Notes under the pieces: model-generated
Told to the model about the DNA's origin: nothing
Database searches by the model: none
The model's input: only the letters and a program-made list of their open reading frames with translations
Source: an uncultured Anaerolineae bacterium
GTDB taxonomy: Bacteria; Chloroflexota; Anaerolineae; Aggregatilineales; Phototrophicaceae
Direction: 5' to 3'
Assembly: GCA_937922795.1 (NCBI GenBank)
Contig: CALAJK010000028.1
Coordinates: 1 to 64,000, forward strand
Length of the DNA stretch: 64,000 nt
In this document: positions 25,609 to 42,911 of the stretch, piece by piece
Layout: the number at the start of each line of letters is the position of its first letter
How positions within the stretch are numbered: position 1 is the first letter of the stretch
Translations under genes and position numbers: made by a program

Positions 25609-28600
25609 ATGAAATCGCTGTTCAGCCTGTTCACTGAGTTCTCACTGCGTTTCCGCGCCATTATCTTAGCTCTCGTCGTCGTCTTCGTCGTGCTGGGTGT
25701 GATCGCAGTTACACAGCTTCAGCAGGAACTGCTGCCGTCCATTGCTTTCCCACAAACGGTCATTCTGGCACAGGCTTCCGGCATGTCTACCGATGAAGTG
25801 TTAGAAGTGCTGACGCGCCGCCTAGAATCAGCCCTTGATCAGATTGAACCGATCATCAATATCGAGTCGACCACAACCGGCGCGTTTGGGAGCGTCATCA
25901 TCGCTCGCAACGACTTCGGCGTCGATCAAACCAAGCTTCAGGCCAGCATCCGCAGTGCCTTAGACCAGGTCTGGCTACCTCAGCGCCGGATTGAACCGCC
26001 TGACGGCCAGGAGGACGCAGGCTATGCTCGCGCCCTGCTAGCAGATATTACGCCGGACGTTCTGATTTATCTGAACGAAAAATCCCCCGGCTTCTTGCTT
26101 CAATTGTCCCCGAATGTCTGGTCGGCGCTCTCTGATGACACCATCAGCGATTTACTCGCCTATCTGGCCGGCCAGGTCAAGAAAACGAACGAAGGTCAAA
26201 CGGCGCTTCAGAATCTGGTCAGACAACAACTGGTTCCCAACCTCGAAGCCCTGGACGTTGTGGCGCGCGTAACGGTCAGCGGCGGCCAGTCGCTGCCAGG
26301 CGAAAACAACCAACCAGCGCCAGCAGCGGCTGCCGACCCAACCAGCCTGCTGCTAGAGTTGCCCGCCGAAGTCTGGCGCGTCGTTGGCTCACGCGTTGGC
26401 CTGGGCGAGGAATTAGACGAGCGAGCAGTTGAAACGCTGCGTCAAGCCTCCGTCGCCGTTCCAACGCAGCCGCCCCCCCTGCCCTCATCCTGGCAGCGCG
26501 ACGGCTTTCACGACGCCAGCGATCTTTTGGAGATGGAAAACCTGACGCGCAGCGCCGCCGCCGTCATCAATGCGTTCGCAGAGACCGGTCGTATCGTCGG
26601 CGCGCTGGGACAAACCGATGATTTGACGCCTGAAATCATCACCAAGATGCTTGAGCTGCAGCCGTCGCTCGCGCGGTATTTCAAGGCCGAGCACCTGGTT
26701 GCGATGCCCCAAGCTGCTTTTGAAGCTCTGCCGGATGATTTCATCGCCAATCTCGATGGCTTCACGCGCGATGAACTGGCGGCCAAAGCCCTGGCGGCCA
26801 GCATTACCGGCCAGGATATCGAACCGAAACCCGTCAACCTGCCGTCCGCCTGGCGCATCTCACCGCCTCAGCTCATCAGCTTCAGCTTCGACGACATTCC
26901 TCTAGCCAGCTTCAGCGTCGCCAGCGCCGCGCCTGATCAACAGCTGGCGGCTGCCGCCGCGGTAGCGCAAAGAGAAGAAGAGAAACCGGCCGCCACGCCC
27001 GCGCCTGAGCCGCGCCCCAACACCGATGTACTGCCGGAGGGGCCGGCGCTGCCCCCATTTTTCAGCCTTCTGGGCTTGGCTTTTGGCGTTGAGATGAACT
27101 CTGCCGACGACCTGATCAACCTGCAGCTCCCAGACAACCTGGCGGCTCAGTTCGGCGGCAGTGCCTTACGGGCGGCCGACTTGCTCAATTTTTTGATGCT
27201 CCTCCGCGACCCCGCGGCGCTGCCGCCCGGCATCAACCTGCCGCCCCTGCTCAGCAATCTGGACGTGAACGCGCTCATCGGCTCCATCAGTCCAGAAGCT
27301 GTGGCGTTTCTGGCCGCCAATGATCCCACCTTTCTACCCAATCTCGCCGATGACGTCTTCAATGCCTTTTCGGACGGCGTACTTGAACGCCCAGAGGTTG
27401 CCCCGCCGCTGGATGACGCCTGGAACACGCTCGCCAATCGTCCACAATTTGCTGACAGACCGCTGCGCACTGCGGCCGATCTACTGGCGCTCGGCAATGG
27501 CCGCGCTTCAACCGTGCTGAATACCATCAATCGAGCAGTGCCAGAGGCATTCACCGGGTATGAAGTGCGGCTGTTTGACAGCTTGAGCGTGGCCGCCGTT
27601 CGCTATCTGGTACTGCAGGAGCCAGATTTCCTGCAGAACCTCGAAACCGATGTGCTGACTAAGCTGTCGCCGGCGGTGTTGTCTCGCTTCCAGGAACAGC
27701 TCACGTCGATACTGGACGGCGACGCCGCCGAGGCCGTGCAAGCCATCGCAATGGGCGAACGACCTTCGGCGGCGCAGCGGTTGGCGGCGCGCTACCAGCG
27801 CAACGTGCCTGAAGGCGATCCCACTGCTCCCCCTCTCAACCCTGATTGGAAGTTCGTGGGCGATTTCCTGTCTGTCGAGCTGGACACCGCCGACGACTTC
27901 TTCCGATTTTTCCCAAGTGTGACCGCTTTCTTGAACAACCTGTTCGACAGCCCGCAGGGGATCGCCTTTGCCCCTAACCTGTTCGGCAGGCTGCCGGTGG
28001 ATGCGGCGCGCTACATGGCGCGGCGCGACCCGCAGTTGTTCGACAACCTGCGTATCGAAGCGCTGCAGCTGCTGACGCCCGAAGTTCTGCAAGCGCTGCC
28101 CCAGTCCGTGCGCGATCGCGCCGCTTCCGACGGCGAGCCTTTTGTCCCGACTAACAGCATCACCCGCACGAATGGCAGCAGCAGCCTGCTCGTGACCATC
28201 TACAAGAAAGCGGGCACGAACACAGTCGCCGCGTTCCACACTGTGGCCGACGCTATCCGCGATTTGGATGCCCGCAATGACACGATCCAAACGAATGTGG
28301 TGTTCGAGCAGGCCAGCTTCATCGAGGAATCGATCAGCGGCGTCGCCCGCGAAGGAGGTCTAGGGGGCATTTTTGCCGTCATTGTGATCCTGGTCTTTCT
28401 CAGCGCCGGCGTCTGGTCTGGCCGCGCCCGCCGCGCTACAGGCATCATCCTGATAGTCATCTTCTTAACGCTGCTGGCCATCGTGGTCGGCTCAGGGCTG
28501 GAAGCCGCCGGCGGCGATATCGGGCGAGCGTTTGACCAAGCTGATGTCGTGGTGCGAGTCCTGCTGCTGCTGGGCGCAGTGATCGGCCTGCTGATCTTTT

Positions 28601-30492
28601 TGTGGCCAGGAACGCTGCCCTACCCGGCCTGGCGCAGTACATTAGTCGTGGCCATCAGCATCCCGCTGTCGCTGTGCATGGCGCTGGCCGTCATGAATTG
28701 GGTACCGCCCTTCGTGCATCAACTATTAGCCCCCGCCGCCGAGACTTCGCCGCTGATCGGTTTCCTCATCCGCCTGTTCCCCGCCAGCGTCACGATCAAC
28801 ATCATGACGCTCTCTGGCTTGACCGTGGCCATCGGCCGCGTCGTGGATGACTCGATCGTCGTGTTGGAGAACATCTTCCGCGAAATTCAAGCCGGCGGCG
28901 ACGCACGCCGCGCCATCATCATCGGCACGCGCGATGTATCCGTAGCCATCTTCGCCGCCACCGTGATCACTGTGGTCGTCTTCCTGCCGCTGGGGTTGAC
29001 CGGCGGCATCATCAGCGAGTTTTTTCTGCCCTTTGGTCTAGCCGTCACCTATGCGCTGCTGTCATCCTTCATCGTCGCCATCACAGTGGTGCCGGTGCTG
29101 GCGTATCTCTTTATCACGCCGGAGGAAGCCGCTGCTGAGGGTCACCGGGAAGGCTTCCTGGAACGCATCTACCTGCCTGTGCTGCGCTGGTCGCTCGGAA
29201 AACGGATCAACCGCGGCATCGTTTTGGGATCAGCCGCTTTGAGCATGGTCATTGGCCTGGGGCTGTTTGCCGCGCGGCCAACAACTTTTCTGCCTGAGCT
29301 GGGTGAGCCGCAGATTTCCGTGAGCGTCAACCTGCCCAGCGGCACTAAGCTCATCGAGACGAACGCCAAAGTCAAGGAATTTGAGGCCTACATCAAATCC
29401 GCCATACCGGAACAGGAGTTGAAGACCTACCAGACAATCGTCGGCAGCGGCGGCGCGAACCTGCAAACGCTGATCGGCGGCAGCAACCGCGTCACCGAGA
29501 ACATCGCCAGCATCACGATCGCCATCGAGTCCCGCGATCAACTCGACCGCTGGGCGCAGACCCTACGCGCCGAAGCCGAGAGGATCTTCGGGCCGAACTA
29601 CGTCACCGTATCAGCGGCGTCGATCAGCGAACAGGGCTTCGGCGGTTTTGCCTTAGTCTTGTCAGGCGATCAAGACGACTTGAACGCCATCAACCAGAAG
29701 ATCATCGACACGTTGAATGCTGTCCCAGGGCTCACCAATGTCTCCAGCAATCTGCAAGCCGTCGCCAGCGCAGGCGGGGATAACGGTCCGACGACGCTCA
29801 TTCGGATTGATGGCGAGTCGGCGCTGCGTTTCACCGGCGAGCTGGAGACTGAAAACACGCTGGGCGTTACCCGTCAGGCGATCGAAGCCATTCGCGCCCT
29901 GCCCGATTTGCCGCCGGGGTTGAAAGTCAGCCAGGGCTTTGAGTCGCAGCTTCAAACGGAAGGTTTTCAAAGCCTGTTCGTGGCGATGGGCATCGCCATC
30001 GTCATCGTCGTCATCATCTTGGTCTTCACCTTTGGCTCGCTGGTACACTGGTTAGACATCATCCTCAGTATCGCGGTCGCGCCGGTCGGCGCCGCTGTGC
30101 TGCTGACCCTCACGAACCGGGTGCTGGGCATCTCAGCCATGATTGGGCTGCTCATGCTCATCGGCATCGTCGTCACCAATGCTGTCGTGCTCATCGATCG
30201 CGTTCAAGCCAACCGTCGCGAACGAGCGATGAACGTTCGCGATGCGCTGATCGAGGCGGGCGGGCGGCGGCTGCGCCCCATCTTGATGACCGCGCTCGCC
30301 ACGATCTTCGCTTTGATGCCGCTGGCCGTGGGCTTGTCTAAAGGCGCTATCATCGCCGCTGAACTCGGCACGGTCGTCATCGGCGGCCTCTTCAGCAGCA
30401 CGCTGCTGACCTTGATCGTGGTCCCGGTTGCCTACATGCTGCTGGATCCGCTCCACCGACGGCTGGCGAAACTCGTTGGCCGGGGTCAATGA
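25609..30492 (+). CDS. Giant RND-superfamily transporter with repeat-rich extracytoplasmic insert
   Basis: A 1,627-residue HAE1/AcrB-like permease; relatives are usually about 1,000-1,100. TM1 spans residues about 15-35, followed by a recognisable porter start (SGMSTDEVLEVLTRRLESAL). From about 140 to 840 the sequence is unlike AcrB and contains repeats. The porter fold resumes with TVAAFHTVADAIRDL. TM2 begins near 925; two extra hydrophobic segments separate it from TM3. TM4 carries GRVVDDSIVVLENIFREI, the proton-relay segment. The second half is conventional and ends with TM10-12 (GIVVTNAVVLIDRVQANRR). No membrane-fusion or TolC-like gene is adjacent. In a probably single-membraned Chloroflexota cell it may export lipids or drugs, or act in envelope assembly (inference). 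GAGG lies about ten bases before the ATG. Confidence 0.85.
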   Translation: MKSLFSLFTEFSLRFRAIILALVVVFVVLGVIAVTQLQQELLPSIAFPQTVILAQASGMSTDEVLEVLTRRLESALDQIEPIINIESTTTGAFGSVIIARNDFGVDQTKLQASIRSALDQVWLPQRRIEPPDGQEDAGYARALLADITPDVLIYLNEKSPGFLLQLSPNVWSALSDDTISDLLAYLAGQVKKTNEGQTALQNLVRQQLVPNLEALDVVARVTVSGGQSLPGENNQPAPAAAADPTSLLLELPAEVWRVVGSRVGLGEELDERAVETLRQASVAVPTQPPPLPSSWQRDGFHDASDLLEMENLTRSAAAVINAFAETGRIVGALGQTDDLTPEIITKMLELQPSLARYFKAEHLVAMPQAAFEALPDDFIANLDGFTRDELAAKALAASITGQDIEPKPVNLPSAWRISPPQLISFSFDDIPLASFSVASAAPDQQLAAAAAVAQREEEKPAATPAPEPRPNTDVLPEGPALPPFFSLLGLAFGVEMNSADDLINLQLPDNLAAQFGGSALRAADLLNFLMLLRDPAALPPGINLPPLLSNLDVNALIGSISPEAVAFLAANDPTFLPNLADDVFNAFSDGVLERPEVAPPLDDAWNTLANRPQFADRPLRTAADLLALGNGRASTVLNTINRAVPEAFTGYEVRLFDSLSVAAVRYLVLQEPDFLQNLETDVLTKLSPAVLSRFQEQLTSILDGDAAEAVQAIAMGERPSAAQRLAARYQRNVPEGDPTAPPLNPDWKFVGDFLSVELDTADDFFRFFPSVTAFLNNLFDSPQGIAFAPNLFGRLPVDAARYMARRDPQLFDNLRIEALQLLTPEVLQALPQSVRDRAASDGEPFVPTNSITRTNGSSSLLVTIYKKAGTNTVAAFHTVADAIRDLDARNDTIQTNVVFEQASFIEESISGVAREGGLGGIFAVIVILVFLSAGVWSGRARRATGIILIVIFLTLLAIVVGSGLEAAGGDIGRAFDQADVVVRVLLLLGAVIGLLIFLWPGTLPYPAWRSTLVVAISIPLSLCMALAVMNWVPPFVHQLLAPAAETSPLIGFLIRLFPASVTINIMTLSGLTVAIGRVVDDSIVVLENIFREIQAGGDARRAIIIGTRDVSVAIFAATVITVVVFLPLGLTGGIISEFFLPFGLAVTYALLSSFIVAITVVPVLAYLFITPEEAAAEGHREGFLERIYLPVLRWSLGKRINRGIVLGSAALSMVIGLGLFAARPTTFLPELGEPQISVSVNLPSGTKLIETNAKVKEFEAYIKSAIPEQELKTYQTIVGSGGANLQTLIGGSNRVTENIASITIAIESRDQLDRWAQTLRAEAERIFGPNYVTVSAASISEQGFGGFALVLSGDQDDLNAINQKIIDTLNAVPGLTNVSSNLQAVASAGGDNGPTTLIRIDGESALRFTGELETENTLGVTRQAIEAIRALPDLPPGLKVSQGFESQLQTEGFQSLFVAMGIAIVIVVIILVFTFGSLVHWLDIILSIAVAPVGAAVLLTLTNRVLGISAMIGLLMLIGIVVTNAVVLIDRVQANRRERAMNVRDALIEAGGRRLRPILMTALATIFALMPLAVGLSKGAIIAAELGTVVIGGLFSSTLLTLIVVPVAYMLLDPLHRRLAKLVGRGQ
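26041..28113 (+). repeat. Degenerate protein repeats inside the RND gene
   Basis: Encodes residues about 145-835 of the transporter. A motif of the form A-x-Y-L-x4-P-x-F-L-x-N-L-x3-V-L-x2-L-x-P recurs near residues 148-180, 563-595, 662-695 and 798-832, with a weaker copy near 353-383. A second element (PPL-x3-W, then TADDLL or similar) precedes several copies, near residues 288, 482, 598 and 741, giving composite units of roughly 115-195 residues. The repeat exists at protein level; I see no long exact DNA repeat. Confidence 0.65.
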
Positions 30493-30586: not shown

Positions 30587-31807
30587 CTATTGAGCCGGAT
30601 TCAACTCCGGCCGGGTGGGGATGAGATCCAGCCGCTCACCCACAACCTTAAACGCGCGCAGCGCCTGTTCCAGGTGCTCGCGGCGATGCGTCGCTGTGTA
30701 GCTCGTGCGCAGCAGCGCCCCATTCGGCGGCGTCGCCGGCGGCACGACTGGGTTAGTATAGACGCCTTCTTCGATGAGCGCATTCCAGGCCAAAGCCGTG
30801 TGGAAGTCATCGCCCAAGATGACCGGGATGATCGGCGTGCAGCTCGTGCCCGTGTTGTAGCCCAGATTGACCAGTCCCTCGCGCATGAAATTCGCGTTGT
30901 CCCACAGCGTCTGCACGTGTTGGGGTTCCGTCTCCATGATCTCCAGCGCCGCCAGCGCCGCCGCCGCATTCGGGGCGGGCAGCGCCGCCGAGAAGATCAA
31001 CGCGCGCGCCTTGTGCTGAATGTAGTAGATAACATCGGCATCGCCGGCGATGAAACCGCCGATCGAAGCGAAGCTTTTGCTGAAAGTCCCCATCGTCAGA
31101 TCAACCTGATCGGACAGTCCGAAGTGAGCCGCCGTGCCGCGGCCGCCGCCGGTCACCCCCATGCCGTGCGCGTCGTCCACCATCAGACGCGCCCCGTACT
31201 TCTTGCAAACGGCGGCGATCTCCGGCAGCGGCGCGATGTCGCCGCTCATGCTGTAGACGCCGTCCACGATCACCAACCGCCCCGCATCATCCGGCAGCCG
31301 GCTGAGGACGCTTTCCAGGCTCTCGACGTTGTTGTGCCGGAATCGCTTGATCTCGCCCTGGCTCATGGTGCAGCCATCAACGATGCTGGCGTGATCTTCT
31401 TTGTCCAGGATGACGTAGTCGCCCTTGCCCACCAAGGACGAGATCGTGCCCACATTAGTTTGATAGCCGGTGGAGAACACCAGCGCCGCTTCTTTGCCGA
31501 CAAAACGCGCTAGCCGGCGTTCAAGCTCCAAATGCAGCTCCAGCGTGCCGTTGAGGAAGCGCGACCCGGTGACACTTGTCCCATACCGGCGCACGGCATC
31601 AATCGCCGCCTGACGGACGCGGGGATCTGTCGTCAGGCCCAGGTAATTATTCGAGCCTAGCATGATCACCTGTTTGTTTTCGAAGACGGCGGTGACGCCT
31701 TCCGTTTCGCTGAGGGCGCGGAAGTAGGGATACATGCCGATTGAAGCCGCATCCTTGGCGCGAACTATGGTCTCATCTTTCTCGATCTTATCAAACAGAT
31801 CAGCCAC
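30587..31807 (-). CDS. Alpha-oxoamine synthase, serine palmitoyltransferase-like
   Basis: A 406-residue PLP-dependent alpha-oxoamine synthase, a family that condenses an amino acid with an acyl-CoA. MGTFSKSFASIGG holds the PLP Lys, DDAHGMGVTG is the cofactor Asp region, and KEDHASIVDG contains the ring-stacking His. YPYFRALSE, LGSNNYLGLTTDPRV and TGSRFLNGTLELH resemble bacterial serine palmitoyltransferase of the Bacteroidetes type more than glycine C-acetyltransferase or BioF (judged from memory). The GTG at 31807 is chosen because AAGGGAG lies seven bases upstream; an in-frame ATG 23 codons earlier lacks this. No biotin or sphingolipid genes are adjacent, so the product is an inference. It ends at a strong hairpin. 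Confidence 0.75.
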   Translation of the reverse strand: MADLFDKIEKDETIVRAKDAASIGMYPYFRALSETEGVTAVFENKQVIMLGSNNYLGLTTDPRVRQAAIDAVRRYGTSVTGSRFLNGTLELHLELERRLARFVGKEAALVFSTGYQTNVGTISSLVGKGDYVILDKEDHASIVDGCTMSQGEIKRFRHNNVESLESVLSRLPDDAGRLVIVDGVYSMSGDIAPLPEIAAVCKKYGARLMVDDAHGMGVTGGGRGTAAHFGLSDQVDLTMGTFSKSFASIGGFIAGDADVIYYIQHKARALIFSAALPAPNAAAALAALEIMETEPQHVQTLWDNANFMREGLVNLGYNTGTSCTPIIPVILGDDFHTALAWNALIEEGVYTNPVVPPATPPNGALLRTSYTATHRREHLEQALRAFKVVGERLDLIPTRPELNPAQ

Positions 31808-32094
31808 GAATGGGCTCCCTTCTACACAATATTCACACAACTCACGGCGGTGAATGTCGAGTTGTGTCTCCAACATAAACGAAATGGAACAATCACACCT
31901 TTAAACAACACGCGACTGAAGGTCTGCGTTACGTCTGTAGGTGGTGATAATTTCACGAATTTAACCGGCTTTGACGATTTTTGCAAACCTTTCGCATTCC
32001 GAACTCCGTCACAAAACCTTGCGTCAGACTGCCCAGACCGTTAAAATGTCGGCTTGATCGCTAGATAGCGTGTGCGACCGGAGCAAAACGTAGC

Positions 32095-32328
32095 ATGGGA
32101 TCTTTGACTGTTCGTCGTCTCATCGTGTGGGCCGTCTCGACCGTACTGGGTTTCATCGTTTCCTGGCTGATCATCACCATCGGCTTTCCCATCATTTTGC
32201 CGTCCGCTCATGGGGTGACGATCGAGCAGTATGGCATCATGTACTTCCTGGTCACCATGATCCCCTTGGTGCTGGTGTTCGTGATCTGGCTGGATGCCCT
32301 GCTCGGCACGAAGATCCTGCCGGACTAG
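32095..32328 (+). CDS. Small two-TM membrane protein, unknown function
   Basis: A 77-residue protein with two hydrophobic helices, residues about 9-31 and 48-70, joined by a short loop containing HGVTIEQYG. The N-terminus has two Arg, suggesting both ends are cytoplasmic. I do not recognise a family. GGAG lies 11 bases before the ATG, which is a weak site. The upstream gap shared with the SPT-like gene is about 290 bp, enough for divergent promoters. Codon use resembles the neighbours, so I consider it a real gene. Confidence 0.6.
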   Translation: MGSLTVRRLIVWAVSTVLGFIVSWLIITIGFPIILPSAHGVTIEQYGIMYFLVTMIPLVLVFVIWLDALLGTKILPD

Positions 32329-32363
32329 ATTCGTTACTACACCTCACGTATTGCCCATCCGAT

Positions 32364-32383
32364 CCGGCCTACATCTAGGCTGG
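32364..32383. terminator. Weak hairpin between convergent genes
   Basis: CCGGCCTA/TAGGCTGG stem with one G-T pair and a CATC loop, lying between the small membrane gene and the deacetylase stop. There is no T-tract on either side, so the call is tentative. Confidence 0.3.
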
Positions 32384-32389
32384 ACGTGG

Positions 32390-33208
32390 TCATGACGCAT
32401 ACTCGCGCAGCGCCGCAGCTAACCCTGCCGCCCCAGCGTCGGCTGGCACGCGCACGCGCGCCAGCTCCAACAGACGGTCGGTGGTGTGCACAGCGCCCGG
32501 CTGGGTCGTCACCGCTGCCCAGATAGGCATCTGCCTGGCAACCGCCAGCACAGCATCGTCATAGCGGCCAACCGGATAAGCCAGCATGTGCGCTGGCACG
32601 CCGGTATGCGCTTGCAAACTCTCCAGACTGCCCAGCAGCTCATACACTAGAAACTCGTACGATCGGTTGCGCAGATCCGGATGATTTTTGGTATGCGACT
32701 CCATGCTCATACCTGCCGCCGCCATCTCGCGAATCTGCGTCCAACTGAGGTGACCGGGATGGGCTGCGTCGGCCAGCCCGGTGATGATGAAGAAAGTGCC
32801 AGTGTAGCCGAAACGCTTCAGCGTCGGGAAAACATGAATATAGTGATCCAGATAGCCATCATCGAAGGTGAGGATGATCGGCTGAGAGGGCAGCGGCGTC
32901 CCCCGAGTGAGCGCATCCCGCAGTTGATACAGCGAGATGGTTGTATAGCCAGCGGCGCGCAGGTAGACCATCTGCTCCCGAAACTGGTCGGGAGTGATCG
33001 TCAGACCCCGGCGCATATCGTCGGCATCTTCTGGAAGATCGCTGACGTAGTGATACATCAAGATCGGCACGCGCACCCGGCGCAGCGTGCCATCGTACGG
33101 CGTCTGAGCGATTCCTGACCCCAGCGCCGCCTGCCCCGCTGCGCCCTGCTCACCGCCGGCTGCCGCCAAAAGCGCGGCCAGGACTCCGATCCCGATCACT
33201 CGCCACAT
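32390..33208 (-). CDS. Secreted polysaccharide deacetylase (CE4, NodB domain)
   Basis: A 272-residue CE4 deacetylase that should remove N- or O-acetyl groups from a cell-wall or exopolysaccharide. Residues 1-25 look like a signal peptide (WRVIGIGVLAALLAAAGG). NodB motif 1 is ILTFDDGYLDHY (catalytic base and metal Asp), motif 2 is MESHTKNHPDL (two metal His), and motif 3 is AYPVGRYD. VPILMYHYVSD before the domain is typical of the PgaB/IcaB-like subgroup. It stands alone, convergent with the small membrane gene. The upstream 229 bp are shared with the HMG-CoA reductase promoter. Confidence 0.9.
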   Translation of the reverse strand: MWRVIGIGVLAALLAAAGGEQGAAGQAALGSGIAQTPYDGTLRRVRVPILMYHYVSDLPEDADDMRRGLTITPDQFREQMVYLRAAGYTTISLYQLRDALTRGTPLPSQPIILTFDDGYLDHYIHVFPTLKRFGYTGTFFIITGLADAAHPGHLSWTQIREMAAAGMSMESHTKNHPDLRNRSYEFLVYELLGSLESLQAHTGVPAHMLAYPVGRYDDAVLAVARQMPIWAAVTTQPGAVHTTDRLLELARVRVPADAGAAGLAAALREYAS

Positions 33209-33395
33209 TCGCTTTCACCTCGCTTCAAGATCGCCCTTAGCTTACTGACCGTCGCTGCTGGCGTCAATCGCGCGCACAACCCAAACCCTCAGACCGCAAC
33301 AATCCTAACCTGTCAATACTGCTCGCTGGAAGCGACTGCTGCGCTGCTCACGAAAACTCATCAAACCCTAACACTTTGTGCCATTTTTCACCATT

Positions 33396-33413
33396 CCTGA
33401 TAGCTTTTGAAAG
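33396..33413 (+). promoter_or_regulatory. TGATAG-type motif upstream of HMG-CoA reductase
   Basis: CCTGATAGCTTTTGAAAG, 24 bp before the reductase ATG, matches CCTGATAGGTTTTGATAG at 37109-37126 before the DUF35 gene at 16 of 18 positions. It may be an operator or promoter element shared by the mevalonate genes. Confidence 0.4.
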
Positions 33414-33437
33414 TTCTCCGCTGCTAAAGTGTGCTGC

Positions 33438-34739
33438 ATGAACGCTCAACATTCCTCTCGCTTACCTGGTTTCTACAAGCGCAGCCTGCCAGAACGCGCC
33501 GCCATCGTGGCGGAGTGGGCTGGCTTGACGCCCGAGGAACAAGCTGTTTTGCTCGGTGTCAGCGGTCTCAACGCCGCCCAGGCTGACCATATGATCGAAA
33601 ATGCCATCGGTGTGTACGGACTGCCGATGGGCATAGCCACCAACTTTCTCATCAACGATCAGGACTATTTAGTCCCGATGGTGATCGAAGAACCTTCGGT
33701 GGTGGCGGCTGTCAGCAATGCCGCCCGGCTGTTCCGCGCCGGCGGCGGCTTCATCACATCGAGCGATGAGCCGCTCATGATCGGACAAATTCAAGTCCTA
33801 GATCTGGCCGATGTTTATGTAGCAGCGGGCGCTGTCATGGCGCAGCGCGATGCGCTGCTGCGCCAGGTGGATGAAATCGGCGGCAGCATCGTCAAACATG
33901 GCGGCGGCGCGCGCGATCTTCAGGTACGCCCAATTCTGGACACGCCGGTCGGCCCCATGTTGATCGTACACCTGATCTATGACACACGCGACGCCATGGG
34001 CGCGAACGCGGTCAACACTGCTGTCGAACATCTCGCGCCGCAGATCGAGACGATCACCGGCGGACGGGTCAATCTGCGCATCCTCAGCAACCTGGCAGAC
34101 CAACGCAAAGCCCGCGCCGAAGGCATGATCCCTGCCGGCGAATTGGCCACCGAGAGGATCACCAGCGAAGACGCGGTACAGGCTATCATCGAAGCCGGCA
34201 TCTTCGCCGAAGTGGATCCCTACCGGGCCACCACCCACAACAAGGGCATTCTAAATGGGATTGACGCCGTCGTCATCGCCACCGGCAACGATTGGCGCGC
34301 CATCGAAGCCGGCGCGCACGCCTATGCTGCCCGTGACGGCCGCTACACCAGCCTGACCCAGTGGTGGAAAGACGAGCAGGGAAACCTGCGCGGCGCGATC
34401 GAGCTGCCGCTGGCGGTGGGCATCGTGGGCGGAGCCACCCGGGTTCACCCGGCGGCGCAGGTGGCGCTGAAGATTTTGGGCGTGCAGTCCGCCCGGCAGC
34501 TCGCCGAAGTGATCGCCGCAGTCGGCCTGGCGCAAAACCTGGCGGCCATGCGAGCGCTGGCCACCGAAGGCATTCAGCGCGGTCATATGCGTATGCACGC
34601 GCGCCAGATCGCCATCGCCGCTGGTGCAAGCGGCGACTTGGTGAACCGGGTCGTGCAGGCCATGATTGAAGACAATACGATTCGCCTGGAGCGCGCCAAA
34701 GAACTGGTGCAACAGTTCAAACGCGCCGGCTCAAACTGA
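33438..34739 (+). CDS. Class II hydroxymethylglutaryl-CoA reductase
   Basis: A 433-residue HMG-CoA reductase of the class II (Pseudomonas mevalonii-like) type, with no membrane segment. It interconverts HMG-CoA and mevalonate. Catalytic residues by family alignment are Glu in VIEEPSVVAA (84/85), Lys in TTHNKGILNGID, Asp in IATGNDWRA and His in GHMRMHARQIA. ENAIGVYGLPMGIA is the substrate loop and DTRDAMGANAVNT lies in the dinucleotide region, which suggests NAD(H) use (inference). Next to HMG-CoA synthase it should act in the biosynthetic direction. The ATG at 33438 is preferred to a GTG three codons earlier; neither has a good ribosome site. It is followed by HMG-CoA synthase after 33 bp. 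Confidence 0.95.
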   Translation: MNAQHSSRLPGFYKRSLPERAAIVAEWAGLTPEEQAVLLGVSGLNAAQADHMIENAIGVYGLPMGIATNFLINDQDYLVPMVIEEPSVVAAVSNAARLFRAGGGFITSSDEPLMIGQIQVLDLADVYVAAGAVMAQRDALLRQVDEIGGSIVKHGGGARDLQVRPILDTPVGPMLIVHLIYDTRDAMGANAVNTAVEHLAPQIETITGGRVNLRILSNLADQRKARAEGMIPAGELATERITSEDAVQAIIEAGIFAEVDPYRATTHNKGILNGIDAVVIATGNDWRAIEAGAHAYAARDGRYTSLTQWWKDEQGNLRGAIELPLAVGIVGGATRVHPAAQVALKILGVQSARQLAEVIAAVGLAQNLAAMRALATEGIQRGHMRMHARQIAIAAGASGDLVNRVVQAMIEDNTIRLERAKELVQQFKRAGSN

Positions 34740-34772
34740 GATCAGCACACTCTACAGCGGAGGACGTACTCC

Positions 34773-35858
34773 ATGACGATGAATGGATTGAATCCTGCTA
34801 ACTACTCCCTTCTGATGCGGCCAGACCGGCAGGTAGGCATCATCGGTTACGGCGCTTACATCCCGCGCTACCGGCTGCCCGGCGCTGAGATCGCCCGCAT
34901 CTGGACGAACGGCCTGGGCGGCTCGCCTGTCAAAGAGAAGGCCGTCGCCGGGCTGGATGAAGACGTGACGACCATGTCGATCGAGGCGGCGCGCAATGCC
35001 CTGGCGCGCGCCGGCATCGACCCGCGTTTGATCAGGGCTGTCTGGGTGGGCAGTGAAAGCCATCCCTACGCCGTCAAACCCACCAGCACGATCGTCGCCG
35101 AGAGCATCGGCGCGTCGCCCAACATCCAGGCTGCCGATTGGGAATTCGCCTGTAAGGCGGGCACCGAAGCCGTGCAGGCTTCCATCGGCTTGGTCGGCAG
35201 CGGCATGGCCGCTTATACCCTCAGCATCGGCATGGACACTGCCCAAGGGCGGCCGGGCGACGCGCTCGAATACACGGCCGCCTCCGGCGGAGCCGCTTAC
35301 ATCATCGGCCCAGCAGATGAGGCCTGCGCCATCTACCAGGGCAGCTACAGCTTCGTCACTGACACACCCGATTTCTGGCGGCGCGCCGATGAAACGTACC
35401 CAAGCCACGGTGACCGCTTCACCGGCGAACCCGCCTACTTCAACCATACGCTGTCCGCGGCCCAGACTCTGATGGACACGATGGGCACGCGCGCTTCGGA
35501 CTACACGTTTGCCGTCTTTCACCAGCCCAATGTGAAATTTCCCTCGCGCGCAGCCGAGATATTGGGGTTCACGCCTGACCAGATCAAGACCGGCCTCCTG
35601 GCCAACGAGATCGGCAATGTCTATTCCGGGTCGTGCATGTTGGGACTGACCGCCATTCTAGACGTGGCCAAGCCCGGCGACCGCATCTTGATGGTCAGCT
35701 ACGGCAGCGGCGCAGGCTCAGACGCCTTCGATATCCTGGTAACAGAGCGCATCACACAAGTTCAAGGGCGCGCGCCCAAAACGCGCGACTACATCAATCG
35801 CCGCACGGTCATTGACTATGCAACCTACTGCCGTTATCGCGGCAAGCTAAAGGACTGA
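34773..35858 (+). CDS. HMG-CoA synthase, archaeal type
   Basis: A 361-residue HMG-CoA synthase of the compact archaeal kind. It condenses acetyl-CoA with acetoacetyl-CoA. The Glu-Cys-His triad can be placed at Glu95 ([11 protein letters not shown]), Cys127 ([10 protein letters not shown]) and His250 ([16 protein letters not shown]); the 32- and 123-residue spacings match the archaeal enzyme as I remember it. [21 protein letters not shown] is the characteristic opening, after about 20 extra residues. GGAGG lies nine bases before the ATG. The thiolase homologue follows after 9 bp. In archaea this protein forms a complex with thiolase and a DUF35 protein that channels acetoacetyl-CoA; both partners are encoded here but look altered, while this enzyme looks intact. 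Confidence 0.95.
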
Positions 35859-35867
35859 GGGCAAACT

Positions 35868-37019
35868 ATGCGCGAAGTGGCCATCGTCGGTATTGGACAG
35901 ACGCCAGTCGGCGAACACTGGGACACCAGCCTGCGCATGCTGGCAGCCGAGGCTGTACGCGCCGCTCTACAAGATGCCGGTGTGAAGACGGCTGACGCTC
36001 TATACGTCGGCTGCGGTTTCAGCGCGCCTTTCAGCAGCCAGCTTCATCTGGGAGCGCTGGTGGCGGATTTCGCTGGTCTGCGAGGAATTGAGGCGTACAG
36101 TGTCGAGGCCGCCGACGCTTCTGGCGGCGCAGCGCTGCGCACGGGTTTCCTGGCAGTGGCCTCCGGAGCCGTTGAGACCGCGCTGGTGCTCGGCGTAGAG
36201 AAAGCCACAGATACTGTGGGCAGCGCCCGCATTCAAGCGCGTAACACCAGCCTCGACGCTGATTTTGAAGCTGCCCACGGCGCTACGCAGTCAGCGCTGG
36301 CCGCCCTGCTCATGCGCCGCTATATGCACGAGTACGGCCTGGAGTTGAGCGCGTTTGAAGGCTTCAGCATCAACGCGCATGCCAACGGCAGCCGCAACCC
36401 AAATGCGATGTTCCGCAACCTGATCAAGCCGGGCAGCTTCGCCCGGGCGCCTATGGTAGCCGATCCGATCAATCTGTTCGACGGCGCGCCCGACGCTGAT
36501 GGAGCGGCCGCCGTCGTGCTGACGACGGTGGAACGCGCCGCCGATATGGTCCCTCAACCCGTGCGGCTCACCGCCAGCGCTGTCGCCACTGACAGCTTGA
36601 CGCTGCATGACCGTCCTGATCTGCTAATTCTGCGCGCCGCCCAGCAGTCAGCCGCGCGCGCTTATGCCCAGGCAGGCATCGAACCTAACGCCGTCAGCTT
36701 GTTCGAACTGCACGATGAATACACTATTCTAGCGGCGCTGTCGCTGGAGGCAGCTGGATTCGCCGAACGCGGCCAGGGCTGGAAGCTGGCGCAGGACGGA
36801 GCCATCGGCTTGCAGGGTTCTATCCCGATCAGCACCTTTGGCGGGTTGAAAGCTCGCGGCAATCCGATCGGCGCAACTGGCATCTACCAGGCGGTGGAGG
36901 CTTGCTTGCAGCTCCGGGGTCAGGCCGGCGACAATCAGGTCAGCGGCGCGCGGACGGCGCTGATCCAGAACTTGGGCGGGCTGGGTGCGACCGCGATCAC
37001 CCATATTCTTCAGGCATAG
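35868..37019 (+). CDS. Archaeal-type thiolase homologue lacking catalytic Cys and His
   Basis: A 383-residue protein collinear with archaeal acetoacetyl-CoA thiolase (SCP2-thiolase-like). The nucleophile motif, expected as VEAACASG, reads VEAADASGG with Asp83. The GHP motif reads GGLKARGNPIGATG with Asn332 instead of His. The C-terminal HNxGG motif reads QNLGG (Gln367). His282 in ELHDEYTI is retained. Fold-defining glycines and loops are intact and there is no frameshift, so it is not an obvious pseudogene. Without the Cys nucleophile, ordinary thiolysis or Claisen condensation should be impossible; a scaffolding, channelling or different catalytic role is inferred. It is tightly coupled to HMG-CoA synthase, 9 bp upstream. 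Confidence 0.85.
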   Translation: MREVAIVGIGQTPVGEHWDTSLRMLAAEAVRAALQDAGVKTADALYVGCGFSAPFSSQLHLGALVADFAGLRGIEAYSVEAADASGGAALRTGFLAVASGAVETALVLGVEKATDTVGSARIQARNTSLDADFEAAHGATQSALAALLMRRYMHEYGLELSAFEGFSINAHANGSRNPNAMFRNLIKPGSFARAPMVADPINLFDGAPDADGAAAVVLTTVERAADMVPQPVRLTASAVATDSLTLHDRPDLLILRAAQQSAARAYAQAGIEPNAVSLFELHDEYTILAALSLEAAGFAERGQGWKLAQDGAIGLQGSIPISTFGGLKARGNPIGATGIYQAVEACLQLRGQAGDNQVSGARTALIQNLGGLGATAITHILQA

Positions 37020-37745: not shown

Positions 37746-39863
37746 CTATACCAGCGGCGTAGTCGCCAGCAGCGGCGCAATCACCAGCGCCACGATCGCC
37801 AGCAGCTTGAGCAGAATATTTAACGATGGCCCAGCAGTGTCCTTAAATGGATCGCCCACCGTGTCGCCGACCACGGCTGCCTTGTGCGCGTCAGACCCTT
37901 TGCCGCCCAGGTGACCAGCCTCGATGCGTTTCTTCGCGTTATCCCAGGCCCCGCCCGCATTCGCCATCATCACCGCTAGCATGAAGGCTGATACCAATGC
38001 GCCAATCAACATGCCGACCAAAGTCGTTGGCCCGACAAACTGGCCGATTATGTTATCGCGTCCGATCAGCGACAAGACCGCAACAGCAATTGGAACGACG
38101 ACGGCGATCAAACCTGGCAAGATCATCTGCCGGATCGCGCTGTCGGTGCTGATCCCCACACAGGTCTCATAGTCTGGCTCAGCCTTGCCCTCCATCAAAC
38201 CAGAGATTTCACGAAACTGGCGGCGCACTTCCTCGACGATGCGCTGCGCCGCATTCCCCACGGCCAGCATGGCTAGCGCGCTGAACAGATACGGAAGCAC
38301 CGCCCCCAAGAATAGACCCGTGATAAAACGCGGATCCAGCACATCGATGCGCAGGATGGCAGCGCCGGCATCAGCGCTTGCGCCCATCAGCGCAGTGACG
38401 AAAGCCGCGTTCAGCGCCAGCGCGGTCATAGCGGCGCTGCCAATGGCAAAGCCCTTGCCCGTTGCGGCGGTCGTGTTGCCCAAGCTGTCCAGCGCATCGG
38501 TGCGCGTGCGCACTTCTTTGCCCAACCCAGCCATCTCAGCGATTCCGCCCGCATTATCTGCTACTGGCCCGTAAGCATCTGTCGCCAGCGTAATGCCCAA
38601 CGTCGCCAGCATCCCGACCGCCGCCATCGCCACGCCGTACAGACCGCCCGTCGCGGCGGAAATCAGCGTCACGACCACGACGATCACCACTGGGGCTACC
38701 GTGCTGAACATGCCGAGCGCCAGGCCGCGGATGATGACGATCGCCGGGCCACCGTTCGCGCTTTCTGAGAGCTGTTGAGTCGGACGATAGCTGTCAGCCG
38801 TGAAGTACTCGGTGAAGTAGCCGATCAGCACGCCGCCTACCAGCCCGCTGAGCGTGGCGATCACCACATTCCAGCCGAGATCCAGCGCCAGCCCCAGCAC
38901 GACAACGGCCAGAGCGACCAGCGCGCTGGCCGTGTATACGCCGCGCCGCAGGCTGCCGAGCAGCATTTCTTGCGTGGCGCTCTCCTGAGTGCGGACCAGG
39001 AAAGTACAGCCCATGCTGATCAGAATGCCCACCGCCGCCACCAGCACTGGAAACACCTGCCCAGCCAGCGTCTTGTCTGGCGCCAGCCCAGCGCCCAGCG
39101 TCGCCAGGGTGATAGCAGCGATGATCGAGCTCGCATAGCTCTCAAATAGGTCTGAACCCATGCCGGCGACATCGCCGACGTTGTCGCCGACGTTGTCCGC
39201 GATGACGGCTGGATTGCGCGGATCGTCCTCCGGGATCCCGGCTTCCGTCTTGCCAACCAGATCGGCGCCCACGTCGGCCGCTTTGGTGTAGATGCCGCCG
39301 CCGACACGGGCGAAGATGGCGATCGACGTGCCGCCGAACCCGAACCCGGCCAGGGCGCTCACTGCTTCTCTGGCAGGCAGTTGGCTCGCGAACAACAGGA
39401 ACAGCAGACTGATACCCAGCAGCGCCAGCGAAACGACGGTTGTGCCCATCACTGTGCCGCTGGCAAACGCGACTCGCAGTCCACTGTTCAAACTCTTGGA
39501 AGCGGCTTGAGCCGTGCGCACATTGGCGCGGACAGCGGTATACATGCCGATGTAACCGGCTAAACCGGAGGCCAGCGCGCCGCTGACGAAAGCGATCGGC
39601 GTCCACAAGCTCATGCCTGAGCCGGGGATCAGACCCAGCACAATGAGCAGGAGCGTGACGACAGCCACTAGGACGACAACTGCCCGGTATTCCCGCCGCA
39701 AAAATGCCTGAGCGCCGCGCTGAATGGCGGACGCAATCTGACGCATGCGGTCATTGCCCGACTCTTGGGATATCACCCAACGCAGTTGATACGCAGCAAA
39801 ACCGATACCGACTAAACTGGCAGCCAGCGCAATCCCATTCGCGCTGCTCAACAAAAACTCCAT
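37746..39863 (-). CDS. hppA: Membrane ion-pumping pyrophosphatase, K+-dependent type
   Basis: A 705-residue M-PPase with about 16 membrane helices that couples PPi hydrolysis to cation export. Catalytic loops are intact: [41 protein letters not shown] and [19 protein letters not shown]. The signature [10 protein letters not shown] has Ala (near residue 463) where K+-independent enzymes have Lys, which indicates K+ dependence. The gate helix reads DLFESYASS, with Glu at the position shared by Na+ pumps and some H+ pumps, so the ion cannot be settled. The start has GGGAGAGAGGG upstream. It is divergent from a second M-PPase. Confidence 0.95.
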
Positions 39864-40262
39864 ACCCTCTCTCCCTAGTTTGCGTCAAAGAATCCGCAGT
39901 TGCTCGCTGGTGCGCTGTCTTCGCAAAAGTTCAAAGCGATGAGCGACCGCCGCACACTCGAAAACCGCAGATGCCGAAAACCAGCGCTAAGCATACCAGA
40001 ACACGTGGAATATTTCACTAAAACATTACAAAATCTTGCAAAATGATTAAGAAACACCCTGTCATTTGCAGGGGAATTTTCATGCTATTTGTTACGACAC
40101 GCCGCTTGACTCATCCCATACAATTATCAGCAGATTAAATTTCTGCGCTCACCCGATGCCTTCTGGCGCACGGGACCTCATCGCTGACACCACAGATCAC
40201 TGCACCAGGGAAGCACCGGGTTTTTGAGTGCTTGCTGGCTTTTGCTTGGAAGGATGAACGTC
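39864..40262. promoter_or_regulatory. 399-bp divergent region between the two M-PPase genes
   Basis: No gene is seen here. An AT-rich core lies at about 40010-40140. On the minus strand GTGAAA-17-TATGCT is a possible weak promoter for the K+-dependent gene. On the plus strand TTGACT lies at 40106-40111, but no good -10 box sits 16-18 bp downstream. GGAAGG just before 40254 is the ribosome site that sets the second start at 40263. Confidence 0.45.
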
Positions 40263-42911
40263 ATGCAAGCAATGCAAGGTATACAACCGTTCGAGCAAGT
40301 CATGATCCTCATCGTATTAGCCACGGCGTTCATTGCCTTGATCTATGCCTACTGGCTGGCGCGACAGACGTTCGCCGCCGACAAGGGCAGTCAGGCGATG
40401 CAGCGCATCTGGGGCTTCATCCGCGATGGCGCTAACGCATATCTGCGGACGCAGTTACGGACAATCGCCATCCTGATCGTCATCCTGACTATCGCGATGT
40501 TCTTGAGCGTGGCGCTAGTCAGGCCCACCGGTGAAGCAAATGAGCTCTTCTGCTCAGCCGAGGTGGAAAAGGCTTATGCCAGCGCCATTGCCGCCGGCAC
40601 TGGTTTGGAAGTCGAGGCAGTGACACAGCTTCTAGAAGACCGCACCCTCACGCCCAAACAGATCGCCAGTAATAACGGCTATGAAGAATTCAATCCGGAG
40701 CGCGTAGCGGCAGGCGTCGAGTGCGCCCCGGCCGTGACCGGCATCGCCATCGGCCGCGCGCTGGCGTTCGCGATGGGCGCGTCTTTCTCGGCCATGGTAG
40801 GTTTCATCGGCATGAACATGGCGGTGCAGGGTAATGTGCGCGTGGCGGCAGCCTCACGGCACAGCTTCAAACGTGCGCTGACCATAGCTTACCGCTCTGG
40901 CACGATTACCGGCATGCTCACCGACGGCCTGGGGCTGCTGGGCGGCACGATGATCTTCATCGTCTTCGGCAAAGCAGCGCCGGATGTGCTGCTCGGTTTT
41001 GGCTTCGGCGGCACGCTGCTAGCGCTGTTCATGCGCGTGGGCGGCGGCATCTACACCAAAGCGGCCGATGTAGGCGCTGACTTGGTCGGCAAGGTCGAAG
41101 CCGGTATGGAAGAAGACGATCCGCGCAATGCCGCTGTGATCGCCGACCTGGTGGGCGATAACGTCGGCGACTGCGCCGGTATGGCCGCCGACATCTTCGA
41201 AAGCTACGAGGTCACCATCGTCTCCAGCTTGATCCTTGGTCTGGCGCTGACTTCGCTCACCGGGCAGTTGTTCTGGATCGTGCTGCCGCTGCTGGTGCGC
41301 GGCATCGGCGTCATCAGCTCCATCGTCGGCACTTACATGGTCTCCGTCTGGCGTGTAGACGACGCCGAGGAAGCCATGTACAAGAGCTACGAAATTTCCA
41401 GCGCCATCACCATCGCCTCGACGTTCCTGCTGTCCGTGTTCTATGCTGGCGCTCAGGAGCCCAGCGGCGACATGCTAGCGCATCTATCGCTCGGTTCGCT
41501 GGTAGCCGTCGGCGTGGCGCTGGCGGTGACCTTCAACCCGCTCACCTCTTATGCTACCAGCGCCAAGAGCAAGCGCGTCCAGAACATCGCCAAGGCGACC
41601 GTGTTCGGCCCGGCGCTGGTCATCCTGGAGGGCGTCTCGCTGGGTTATCAGTCCAGCGTGTGGTCAGTCCTGGTGATCGTCGGCAGCATCGGCGCGTCCA
41701 TCCTGGTTTACAGCGTCACCTTCCCGGCCAACCTGGTTTTGCCTGTGTTCATCCTGGGCGTGGCGCTGGCCGTAGGGGCGATCATCCGCGGTTACCTGCG
41801 CAAAGACATCGTAGGGGGCATCTTCCTGGCGCTGTGGATCATGGTGGCTGCCCTGTACCTCATCAGCATGCGCGAAATCGATCTGGCGAATCGTTTCGTC
41901 TACACCCTGTTTGGCGTATCGCTGATCGGCGTCGGCATGCTCTCGCACACTGGCAACAACGTCAGCATGGACACCTTCGGCCCGATCTCTGACAACGCCA
42001 ACGGCATCGCCGAGCTGGCGGGCGAAGAGGACTTTTCGCCGCAGGCGCGGCAGATCATGGCCGATCTGGACGCGGCTGGCAATACGACGAAGGCGATCAC
42101 CAAAGGCATCGCCATCGGTTCGGCTGTCATCGCGGCGGTATCGCTGTTTGGGTCGTTCTTCATCGACATCAAACGGGTGGCGCCAGAGGGCATGGTCATC
42201 GAAGAGGTGATCAATCTCGCCAATCCGGTGGTCTTCATCGGCCTGCTGCTGGGCGGCGCGCTGCCGCTGCTGTTCGGCGGCCTGCTCATCAAGGCGGTCA
42301 ACCGCGCTGCGGGCTACATCATGGCTGAAGTGCGACGCCAACTGCGCATTCCGGAGATCATGAATAAGGAGCGTCCACCTGACTACGCGCAGTGCGTGAC
42401 CATCTCCACCCGCTCAGCGCAGGCCGAGCTCATCCCGCTGGGATTGATCGCCATCCTGGCGCCCATCGTGGTCGGCCTGCTGTTGAAGGAACAGGCGTTG
42501 GGCGGCTTCCTGGCCGGCGTCATCCTCTCCGGGCAGCTTCAAGCGGTGTTCATGGCCAACGCTGGCGGAGCCTGGGACAACGCCAAGAAATTCATCGAAG
42601 ACGGCAATTTGGGCGGCAAAGGCACCGATAACCACAAGGCCAGCGTCGTGGGCGATACGGTCGGCGACCCGTTCAAGGACACGGCCGGGCCGGCGCTGAA
42701 CCCCATGATCAAGGTGATGAACCTGGTGTCGCTCATCATGGCGCCTATCGTCGTCCAGACGCAGACGCCAGAGGCGACTGTGCCGGTGCTGATCTTCGTG
42801 ATCGTCGGCATCGCGCTCATCATCTGGTCGGTGCGTCGCAGCGACCGCGACGAGCAGGCGGAAGCGCCCATCCCAGCGGCAGCAACGGTTGAGCCTCAGC
42901 GCGTCGGCTAG
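40263..42911 (+). CDS. hppA: Membrane H+-pumping pyrophosphatase, K+-independent type
   Basis: An 882-residue M-PPase, longer than usual. The signature GNTTKAITKG has Lys610, the mark of K+-independent H+-PPases. Catalytic loops [40 protein letters not shown] and [20 protein letters not shown] are intact; the gate region reads DIFESYEVTIV. Extra length comes from a loop of about 60 residues after the second helix, bracketed by Cys97 and Cys154, and from a C-terminal tail after the last helix (DRDEQAEAPIPAAA). The ATG at 40263 is chosen because GGAAGG lies nine bases upstream; an ATG at 40254 is too close to it. It is followed by a strong terminator. Confidence 0.95.
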   Translation: MQAMQGIQPFEQVMILIVLATAFIALIYAYWLARQTFAADKGSQAMQRIWGFIRDGANAYLRTQLRTIAILIVILTIAMFLSVALVRPTGEANELFCSAEVEKAYASAIAAGTGLEVEAVTQLLEDRTLTPKQIASNNGYEEFNPERVAAGVECAPAVTGIAIGRALAFAMGASFSAMVGFIGMNMAVQGNVRVAAASRHSFKRALTIAYRSGTITGMLTDGLGLLGGTMIFIVFGKAAPDVLLGFGFGGTLLALFMRVGGGIYTKAADVGADLVGKVEAGMEEDDPRNAAVIADLVGDNVGDCAGMAADIFESYEVTIVSSLILGLALTSLTGQLFWIVLPLLVRGIGVISSIVGTYMVSVWRVDDAEEAMYKSYEISSAITIASTFLLSVFYAGAQEPSGDMLAHLSLGSLVAVGVALAVTFNPLTSYATSAKSKRVQNIAKATVFGPALVILEGVSLGYQSSVWSVLVIVGSIGASILVYSVTFPANLVLPVFILGVALAVGAIIRGYLRKDIVGGIFLALWIMVAALYLISMREIDLANRFVYTLFGVSLIGVGMLSHTGNNVSMDTFGPISDNANGIAELAGEEDFSPQARQIMADLDAAGNTTKAITKGIAIGSAVIAAVSLFGSFFIDIKRVAPEGMVIEEVINLANPVVFIGLLLGGALPLLFGGLLIKAVNRAAGYIMAEVRRQLRIPEIMNKERPPDYAQCVTISTRSAQAELIPLGLIAILAPIVVGLLLKEQALGGFLAGVILSGQLQAVFMANAGGAWDNAKKFIEDGNLGGKGTDNHKASVVGDTVGDPFKDTAGPALNPMIKVMNLVSLIMAPIVVQTQTPEATVPVLIFVIVGIALIIWSVRRSDRDEQAEAPIPAAATVEPQRVG

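Follow-up and report, generated by a model that had tools for sequence, protein, structure and literature searches.

A Chloroflexota RND transporter family whose docking domain is replaced by helical repeat units

The window, i.e. the whole 64,000-nucleotide stretch of DNA analysed here, encodes an RND transporter whose reading frame and parts are listed in table 1. Its start codon with the AGAGG box, its Pfam match and its homologues confirm that the frame is a real gene. The protein matches Pfam ACR_tran (PF00873) at 4e-116 with 389 bits (cut-off 28) and, by exceeding the gathering score over its TM core, belongs to the AcrB/AcrD/AcrF family; in its own 3.6-Mb genome it is the only match at E <= 0.001. 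The TM4 Asp–Asp pair, which serves as the proton relay of RND pumps, is invariant across 29 aligned sequences. MmpL or HAE-2 as the best family was ruled out because the MMPL profile reaches only 26.6 bits compared with the 389 bits of ACR_tran. None of the NCBIfam RND permease models scores above its cut-off, the top one being NF033617 with 296 bits versus a cut-off of 1250.

Table 1. Coordinates of the transporter gene, its parts and its convergent neighbour in the window.
Feature	Residues	Positions	Strand	Basis
RND transporter gene, 12 canonical TM segments plus extra hairpin	1627 aa	25609..30492	+	Pfam ACR_tran; homologues; RBS-like AGAGG box 5' of the start ATG at 25609
PN1, first part, ordinary porter	~38-125	25720..25983	+	ACR_tran profile 2-112 at residues 9-120; strands and helices in model
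Repeat unit U1, core	136-192	26014..26184	+	2.1e-17 with iterated profile; 6.7e-6 with profile of last unit only
PN2 helix-strand segment C, displaced ahead of segment B	200-226	26206..26286	+	profile 8e-7
Repeat unit U2 with PPLPSSW lead	288-394	26470..26790	+	8.4e-5 with last-unit profile; 1.1e-11 with profile seeded only from distant homologues
PN2 strand segment B	419-439	26863..26925	+	profile 1.1e-5; model strands 421-426, 433-439
Pro/Ala/Glu-rich linker, predicted disordered	441-476	26929..27036	+	pLDDT 26-34
Repeat unit U3	477-596	27037..27396	+	profiles; structure model
Repeat unit U4	597-714	27397..27750	+	1e-12 with last-unit profile; iterated profile; pairwise alignment; model
Repeat unit U5	737-842	27817..28134	+	profiles; pairwise alignment; model
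N-half porter return segment	852-905	28162..28323	+	strands 857-866, 893-900 and helix 872-889 in model; family-wide FEQASFIEESI motif
Extra hydrophobic hairpin between TM2 and TM3	938-1005	28420..28623	+	TM2-TM3 spacing; alignment
TM4 Asp-Asp pair	D1080, D1081	28846..28851	+	invariant in alignment
C-half porter without docking subdomain DC	1223-1455	29275..29973	+	ACR_tran profile 526-711, then 790-1020
Serine palmitoyltransferase-like enzyme, convergent neighbour		30587..31876	-	NF047600, 497.6 bits, below its 640 cut-off

The stretch between TM1 and TM2, i.e. the first porter segment, measures about 870 residues, which agrees with an earlier note on this DNA, made from the letters alone, that had called this segment far longer than usual. 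That note had also placed about 700 inserted residues in the porter; the repeats it described stood up, but a single 700-residue insertion had to be rejected, because pieces of PN2 (approximately residues 197-228 and 412-440) lie inside the 691 residues concerned. Rather, alignments and profiles indicate that the insert combines units at two sites with a swapped PN2 and a docking domain that has been replaced. The simplest relative (L098) runs from the PN1 start through the PN2 strand–helix–strand, two units, the return strand and the FEQAGFIEESI helix into TM2, so that the two units are placed exactly between PN2 and its return strand, which is the position of the N-half docking domain (DN) in AcrB. 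It is this domain that the repeat units replace, with the PN1/PN2 porter core being kept. In the C-half, the ACR_tran profile skips columns 712-789 (about 78) with zero residues in between, and the corresponding docking domain (DC) is thus missing. The docking domains that an HAE-1 permease carries in both halves are thus not present in the window protein. Two extra hydrophobic segments between TM2 and TM3, already seen in the first reading, lie at residues 946-964 and 980-998 and are family-specific, with a TM2–TM3 spacing of 92 residues in the window's clade versus 19-28 in relatives.

The two PN2 segments, i.e. the strand segment B and the helix–strand segment C, were traced with profiles built only from relatives of ordinary order and run on all N-halves; segment order was counted only in sequences with both segments clearly found, the truncated L095 giving noise-level matches only. 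In every member of the window's clade counted in this way C comes before B, with 191-208 residues between them, whereas in all other homologues B directly precedes C at a distance of 1-13 residues. A tree of the conserved second half places every permuted member in one 30-row clade with a support of 100/100. This arrangement probably arose by tandem duplication of a unit–B–C block, after which the first copy lost B and the second lost C. Beside PN2, whose halves exchanged places, further units would have been added in the window's family. In AcrB, PN2 lines the substrate pocket, and its permutation may serve as a natural test of how much re-wiring a porter tolerates beside this pocket.

The recurrent units described in the first reading were recovered by profile-based repeat detection, which finds five related, all-helical units in the first porter segment of the window protein. 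A profile of the last unit only (residues 735-852 region of 22 homologues) matches the other parts at residues 136-186 (6.7e-6), 288-378 (8.4e-5), 513-593 (2.1e-6) and 597-699 (1e-12), and a profile iterated over 48 homologues places the cores at 136-192, 331-394, 555-594, 647-714 and 780-839. When units were aligned pairwise and compared with shuffles, z values of 11.3 (U4/U5), 7.9 (U1/U3) and 7.7 (U3/U4) were obtained, four more pairs reached 4.3-4.7, and the pairs U1/U5, U2/U3 and U2/U5 gave no significant direct alignment; by these comparisons, the repetition of the units exceeds chance. When four distant relatives alone seeded the profile, U2 was found at 1.1e-11, with the remaining window units scoring no better than shuffles, and the most distant unit types are therefore linked only via intermediates.

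The consensus of the unit core reads L-x2-L(T/S)PEVLxYLxxxDPxFLxxLxPEVLxxLSPEVLxALP and is often preceded by (P)PLxxxW as well as by a TADDL element 30-60 residues upstream. Both motifs of the earlier note could be located, i.e. the A-x-Y-L-x4-P-x-F-L-x-N-L core in U1, U3, U4 and U5, and the preceding PPL-x3-W element as PPL/W ahead of U2, U4 and U5. The idea that the unit is a known Pfam repeat was rejected: Pfam searches (HEAT, ARM, TPR and others) returned no family match for the 691-residue stretch and, for 41 units, a single weak match to DUF3352 at 0.0087.

AlphaFold2, run on residues 1-1190 with a 29-sequence alignment, gave a model with a mean pLDDT of 79.5, in which the units mostly reach 85-94 and the linker (441-472) stays below 35. 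Modelled alone, units 3-5 (pLDDT 86.6, pTM 0.73) consist entirely of short helices in a recurring order and are thus predicted with confidence to form one repeated helical fold. Structure prediction, which had been proposed as a check, therefore returns a regular repeated fold in the units and not an ordinary porter lacking one. The core of the modelled N-half superposes on AcrB (about 1-509 to 1-520) with a Z of 25.8 and an rmsd of 4.8 over 363 aligned residues. Because structure searches with the full N-half (Foldseek, VIA) were filled by AcrB-like chains, the insert was modelled alone. Foldseek then returned no match at E <= 0.001, the top rows being mesothelin and other superhelices at E 0.04-0.1, and the best VIA match of the modelled units to solved structures had a Z of 4.0 over about 100 residues. 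Mesothelin-type superhelices are likewise built from short helices, with a likeness that is not significant (E 0.05-0.25, Z ~4). We make no claim of a novel fold for the modelled units, since the absence of a fold relative would be no proof of one. The only PDB sequence matching the unit profiles is 9zem (HeliScrew4; E 1.6e-10 with profile A3 and 1.8e-6 with A4), on which a literature search found no paper. It resembles the unit in having short helices of the LTPEQIAAL kind but differs in being a 120-residue chain of approximately 8-residue repeats, and the similarity may be compositional or convergent.

Among 61 related genomes, 34 encode a matching protein; within the same family, about 20 of 37 genomes have a clear homologue, with identities of 42-71%. 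When 84,980 species, each represented by one genome, were scanned with the N-half alignment, 48 relatives emerged, mostly from Anaerolineae MAGs; the scan used a single peptide pattern and is therefore non-exhaustive. All 48 loci belong to Chloroflexota, and a restriction of the insert to this phylum, raised as a question at the outset, is borne out as far as tested. Of 298 genomes from the class, 27 match the unit profile, as do 7 of 400 from the phylum. One pump-carrying record (L058) is titled Pleurocapsa minor, a cyanobacterium; it groups inside the Chloroflexota clade, and its title looks wrong. A weak unit match in a protein of genome G085, penicillin-binding-protein-like by reading, was judged to be due to chance. 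No long-known family with this architecture came to light either, with no Pfam or NCBIfam model spanning the insert and no description of this family found in the literature. What characterises the family is an RND core, a docking domain that has given way to a previously undescribed repeat, and a PN2 permutation confined to one clade.

The number of units per homologue is 2 (L098), 3 (L096), 4, 5, 6 (L079, L093) or 8 (L119). In the L119 pump, which has 1766 residues, neighbouring units share 60-79% identity and recur every 90-91 residues, which points to a recent unit expansion. Pumps of family f42 (L113, L114), found in Chloroflexota outside the class and 1301-1304 residues long, have kept DN, within which short units with weak matches (1e-5 to 3e-4) lie just ahead of its return strand; from their sequences, they possibly represent an intermediate state toward docking-domain replacement. 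The relatives thus form a graded series that runs from an ordinary docking domain through one with short units and one replaced by 2 to 8 units to the addition of units together with a swapped PN2; such a series makes it testable what takes the place of adaptor and channel. That the unit number drifts among relatives, and that ordinary RND pumps of about 1000-1100 residues without units are common in Chloroflexota, would also fit a neutral elaboration, in which units are tolerated since a monoderm pump needs no docking domain and play no special role. We consider this highly improbable, because neutral inserts this large would decay, whereas homologues of 50-60% identity retain five units, in which Trp, Pro and Asp positions are invariant, and the fold is predicted with confidence.

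RND pumps are usually understood via tripartite assemblies crossing two membranes, with the docking domain being the seat of AcrA and TolC in Gram-negative bacteria; to our knowledge, how such a pump works in single-membrane bacteria is poorly known. As the earlier note had stated, no membrane-fusion protein (MFP) or outer-membrane channel (OMF) gene adjoins the pump at the locus. TolC (PF02321) and Omp85 (PF01103) gave no match in 12 genomes of the group, compared with matches in 7 of 14 control genomes, in line with the single-membraned cell that had been suggested. The pump's own genome, 85% complete, contains no RND adaptor (RND_mfp) above cut-off, only sub-cut-off profile matches, and the membrane-fusion protein and outer-membrane channel with which an HAE-1 pump works were thus not found by these searches. 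RND_mfp adaptor-like proteins are present elsewhere in related genomes.

These data can be read in terms of an AcrB-type (ACR_tran) exporter that is driven by protons and would be adapted to a single-membrane cell. In this pump, presumably a homotrimer, the units of three protomers would stand round the exit of the central funnel as a self-contained tower or duct, which would take over from adaptor and outer-membrane channel by carrying or releasing substrate past the wall or surface layer, and the number of units would set its height. A function as a tower is suggested by the replacement of DN and the lack of DC in alignments and profile gaps, by the units of L098 standing exactly at the docking position, by the confident repeated helical fold and by the N-half core superposing on AcrB. 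Also consistent with it are the variation in unit number between 2 and 8 and the near-identical tandem copies in L119, both of which a spacer would lead one to expect, as well as the short units inside the retained DN of the f42 relative and the absence of TolC and Omp85 from the 12 genomes. Against it speak the long flexible linker (441-476) between PN2 and units 3-5, the location of units 1 and 2, which adjoin PN2 and are thus off the docking position, and the adaptor-like proteins elsewhere in related genomes; moreover, a chain of short helices could equally be an open arm. On balance, we hold the chances to be even that the pump is a self-contained trimeric exporter whose docking domain has turned into a modular tower or duct. 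The more far-reaching proposal is tentative and, in our judgement, rather less probable than its opposite: an RND family restricted to Chloroflexota would have converted its docking domain into a length-adjustable extracellular duct of a new helical repeat, with one polypeptide standing in for a three-protein machine, and in one branch PN2 would have been permuted by duplication and reciprocal loss, presumably with function retained.

The nearest precedent for a self-supplied extension is MmpL5 (HAE-2) of mycobacteria, likewise an RND pump of a TolC-free lineage with its own periplasmic extension inside a porter domain, which has a 196-residue coiled-coil insertion predicted to form a tube replacing the tripartite partners (PMC12501195). 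The extension of MmpL5, however, is one antiparallel coiled coil in periplasmic domain 2 (PMC12501195), whereas the window pump has an AcrB-like core and five solenoid-type units in its first porter domain; a long antiparallel coiled coil of the MmpL5 type does not describe these chains of short helices. With AcrB and HAE-1 pumps (PF00873), the window pump shares the TM core, the TM4 Asp pair and a porter of PN1/PN2 and PC1/PC2, but it differs from them in having repeat units in place of DN, no DC, swapped PN2 halves, an extra TM hairpin and neither TolC nor an adjacent adaptor. The ordinary Chloroflexota RND pumps, including those of f42, come from the same phylum and have the same core, but unlike the window pump have kept DN and the canonical PN2 order and lack the TM2/TM3 hairpin. 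One large survey deliberately excluded Chloroflexota (PMC10872679).

The unit also occurs outside the pump. Family f8, which belongs to the same order, has a secreted protein some 440 residues long (L044:2471-3790, forward strand; also L045-L047) with a squalene-cyclase-like alpha-toroid domain (Pfam SQHop_cyclase_C, 2e-8), and the C-terminus of this protein is one repeat unit of the pump (2e-16). As the unit caps a pump-free secreted protein, it is a mobile domain able to work outside a pump, and this argues for binding rather than for conduction through a tower. The units might accordingly form an arm which captures cargo or a partner outside the membrane, such as a lipid carrier, a wall polymer or the S-layer, and exchanges it with the porter without any duct. 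Two units adjoin PN2, which is rearranged there, and the best Foldseek matches, none of them significant, are peptide- or ligand-binding solenoids (mesothelin, importins). A freely changing unit number with near-identical tandem copies, however, is more readily explained by a spacer than by a single specific binding site, and the units occupy the former place of DN above the exit, so that we regard such an arm as a possibility to be taken seriously, though a doubtful one.

Downstream of the pump, the convergent serine palmitoyltransferase-like gene is followed by genes for a polysaccharide deacetylase, HMG-CoA reductase, an archaeal-type HMG-CoA synthase and thiolase. This cluster (window 30587-37019) is conserved throughout the family, whether or not the pump is present, and points to sphingolipid as well as mevalonate metabolism in these bacteria. 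Among the pump loci, the serine palmitoyltransferase-like gene recurs in 22, the deacetylase in 18, the reductase in 15, the synthase in 14 and the thiolase in 9; genes upstream of the pump recur in at most 6. The adjacency of pump and serine palmitoyltransferase-like gene is thus recurrent and non-obligate, with the enzyme cluster also present in pump-free genomes, where other genes fill the slot of the pump. Anaerolineae have been proposed as sphingolipid producers (PMC11334938) and, together with the recurrent neighbours in 22, 18 and 15 loci and the weak MMPL profile match, this could mean that the pump exports an envelope lipid, a sphingolipid or an isoprenoid lipid, as MmpL or HpnN proteins do, with the units shielding lipid tails outside the membrane. 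A lipid-export operon with the serine palmitoyltransferase is weakened by the stability of the enzyme cluster without the pump, and the convergent genes do not form one operon. The pump is, moreover, located on another contig in two genomes (G018, G028) and missing from about half of the genus genomes. Lipid export is therefore unlikely in our view, and a link of the pump to envelope lipids is possible and weak. Farther along the window, two divergent membrane pyrophosphatase genes lie side by side (37746-39863, reverse strand, and 40224-42911, forward strand), the second of which encodes 895 residues and is longer than its 645-position profile.
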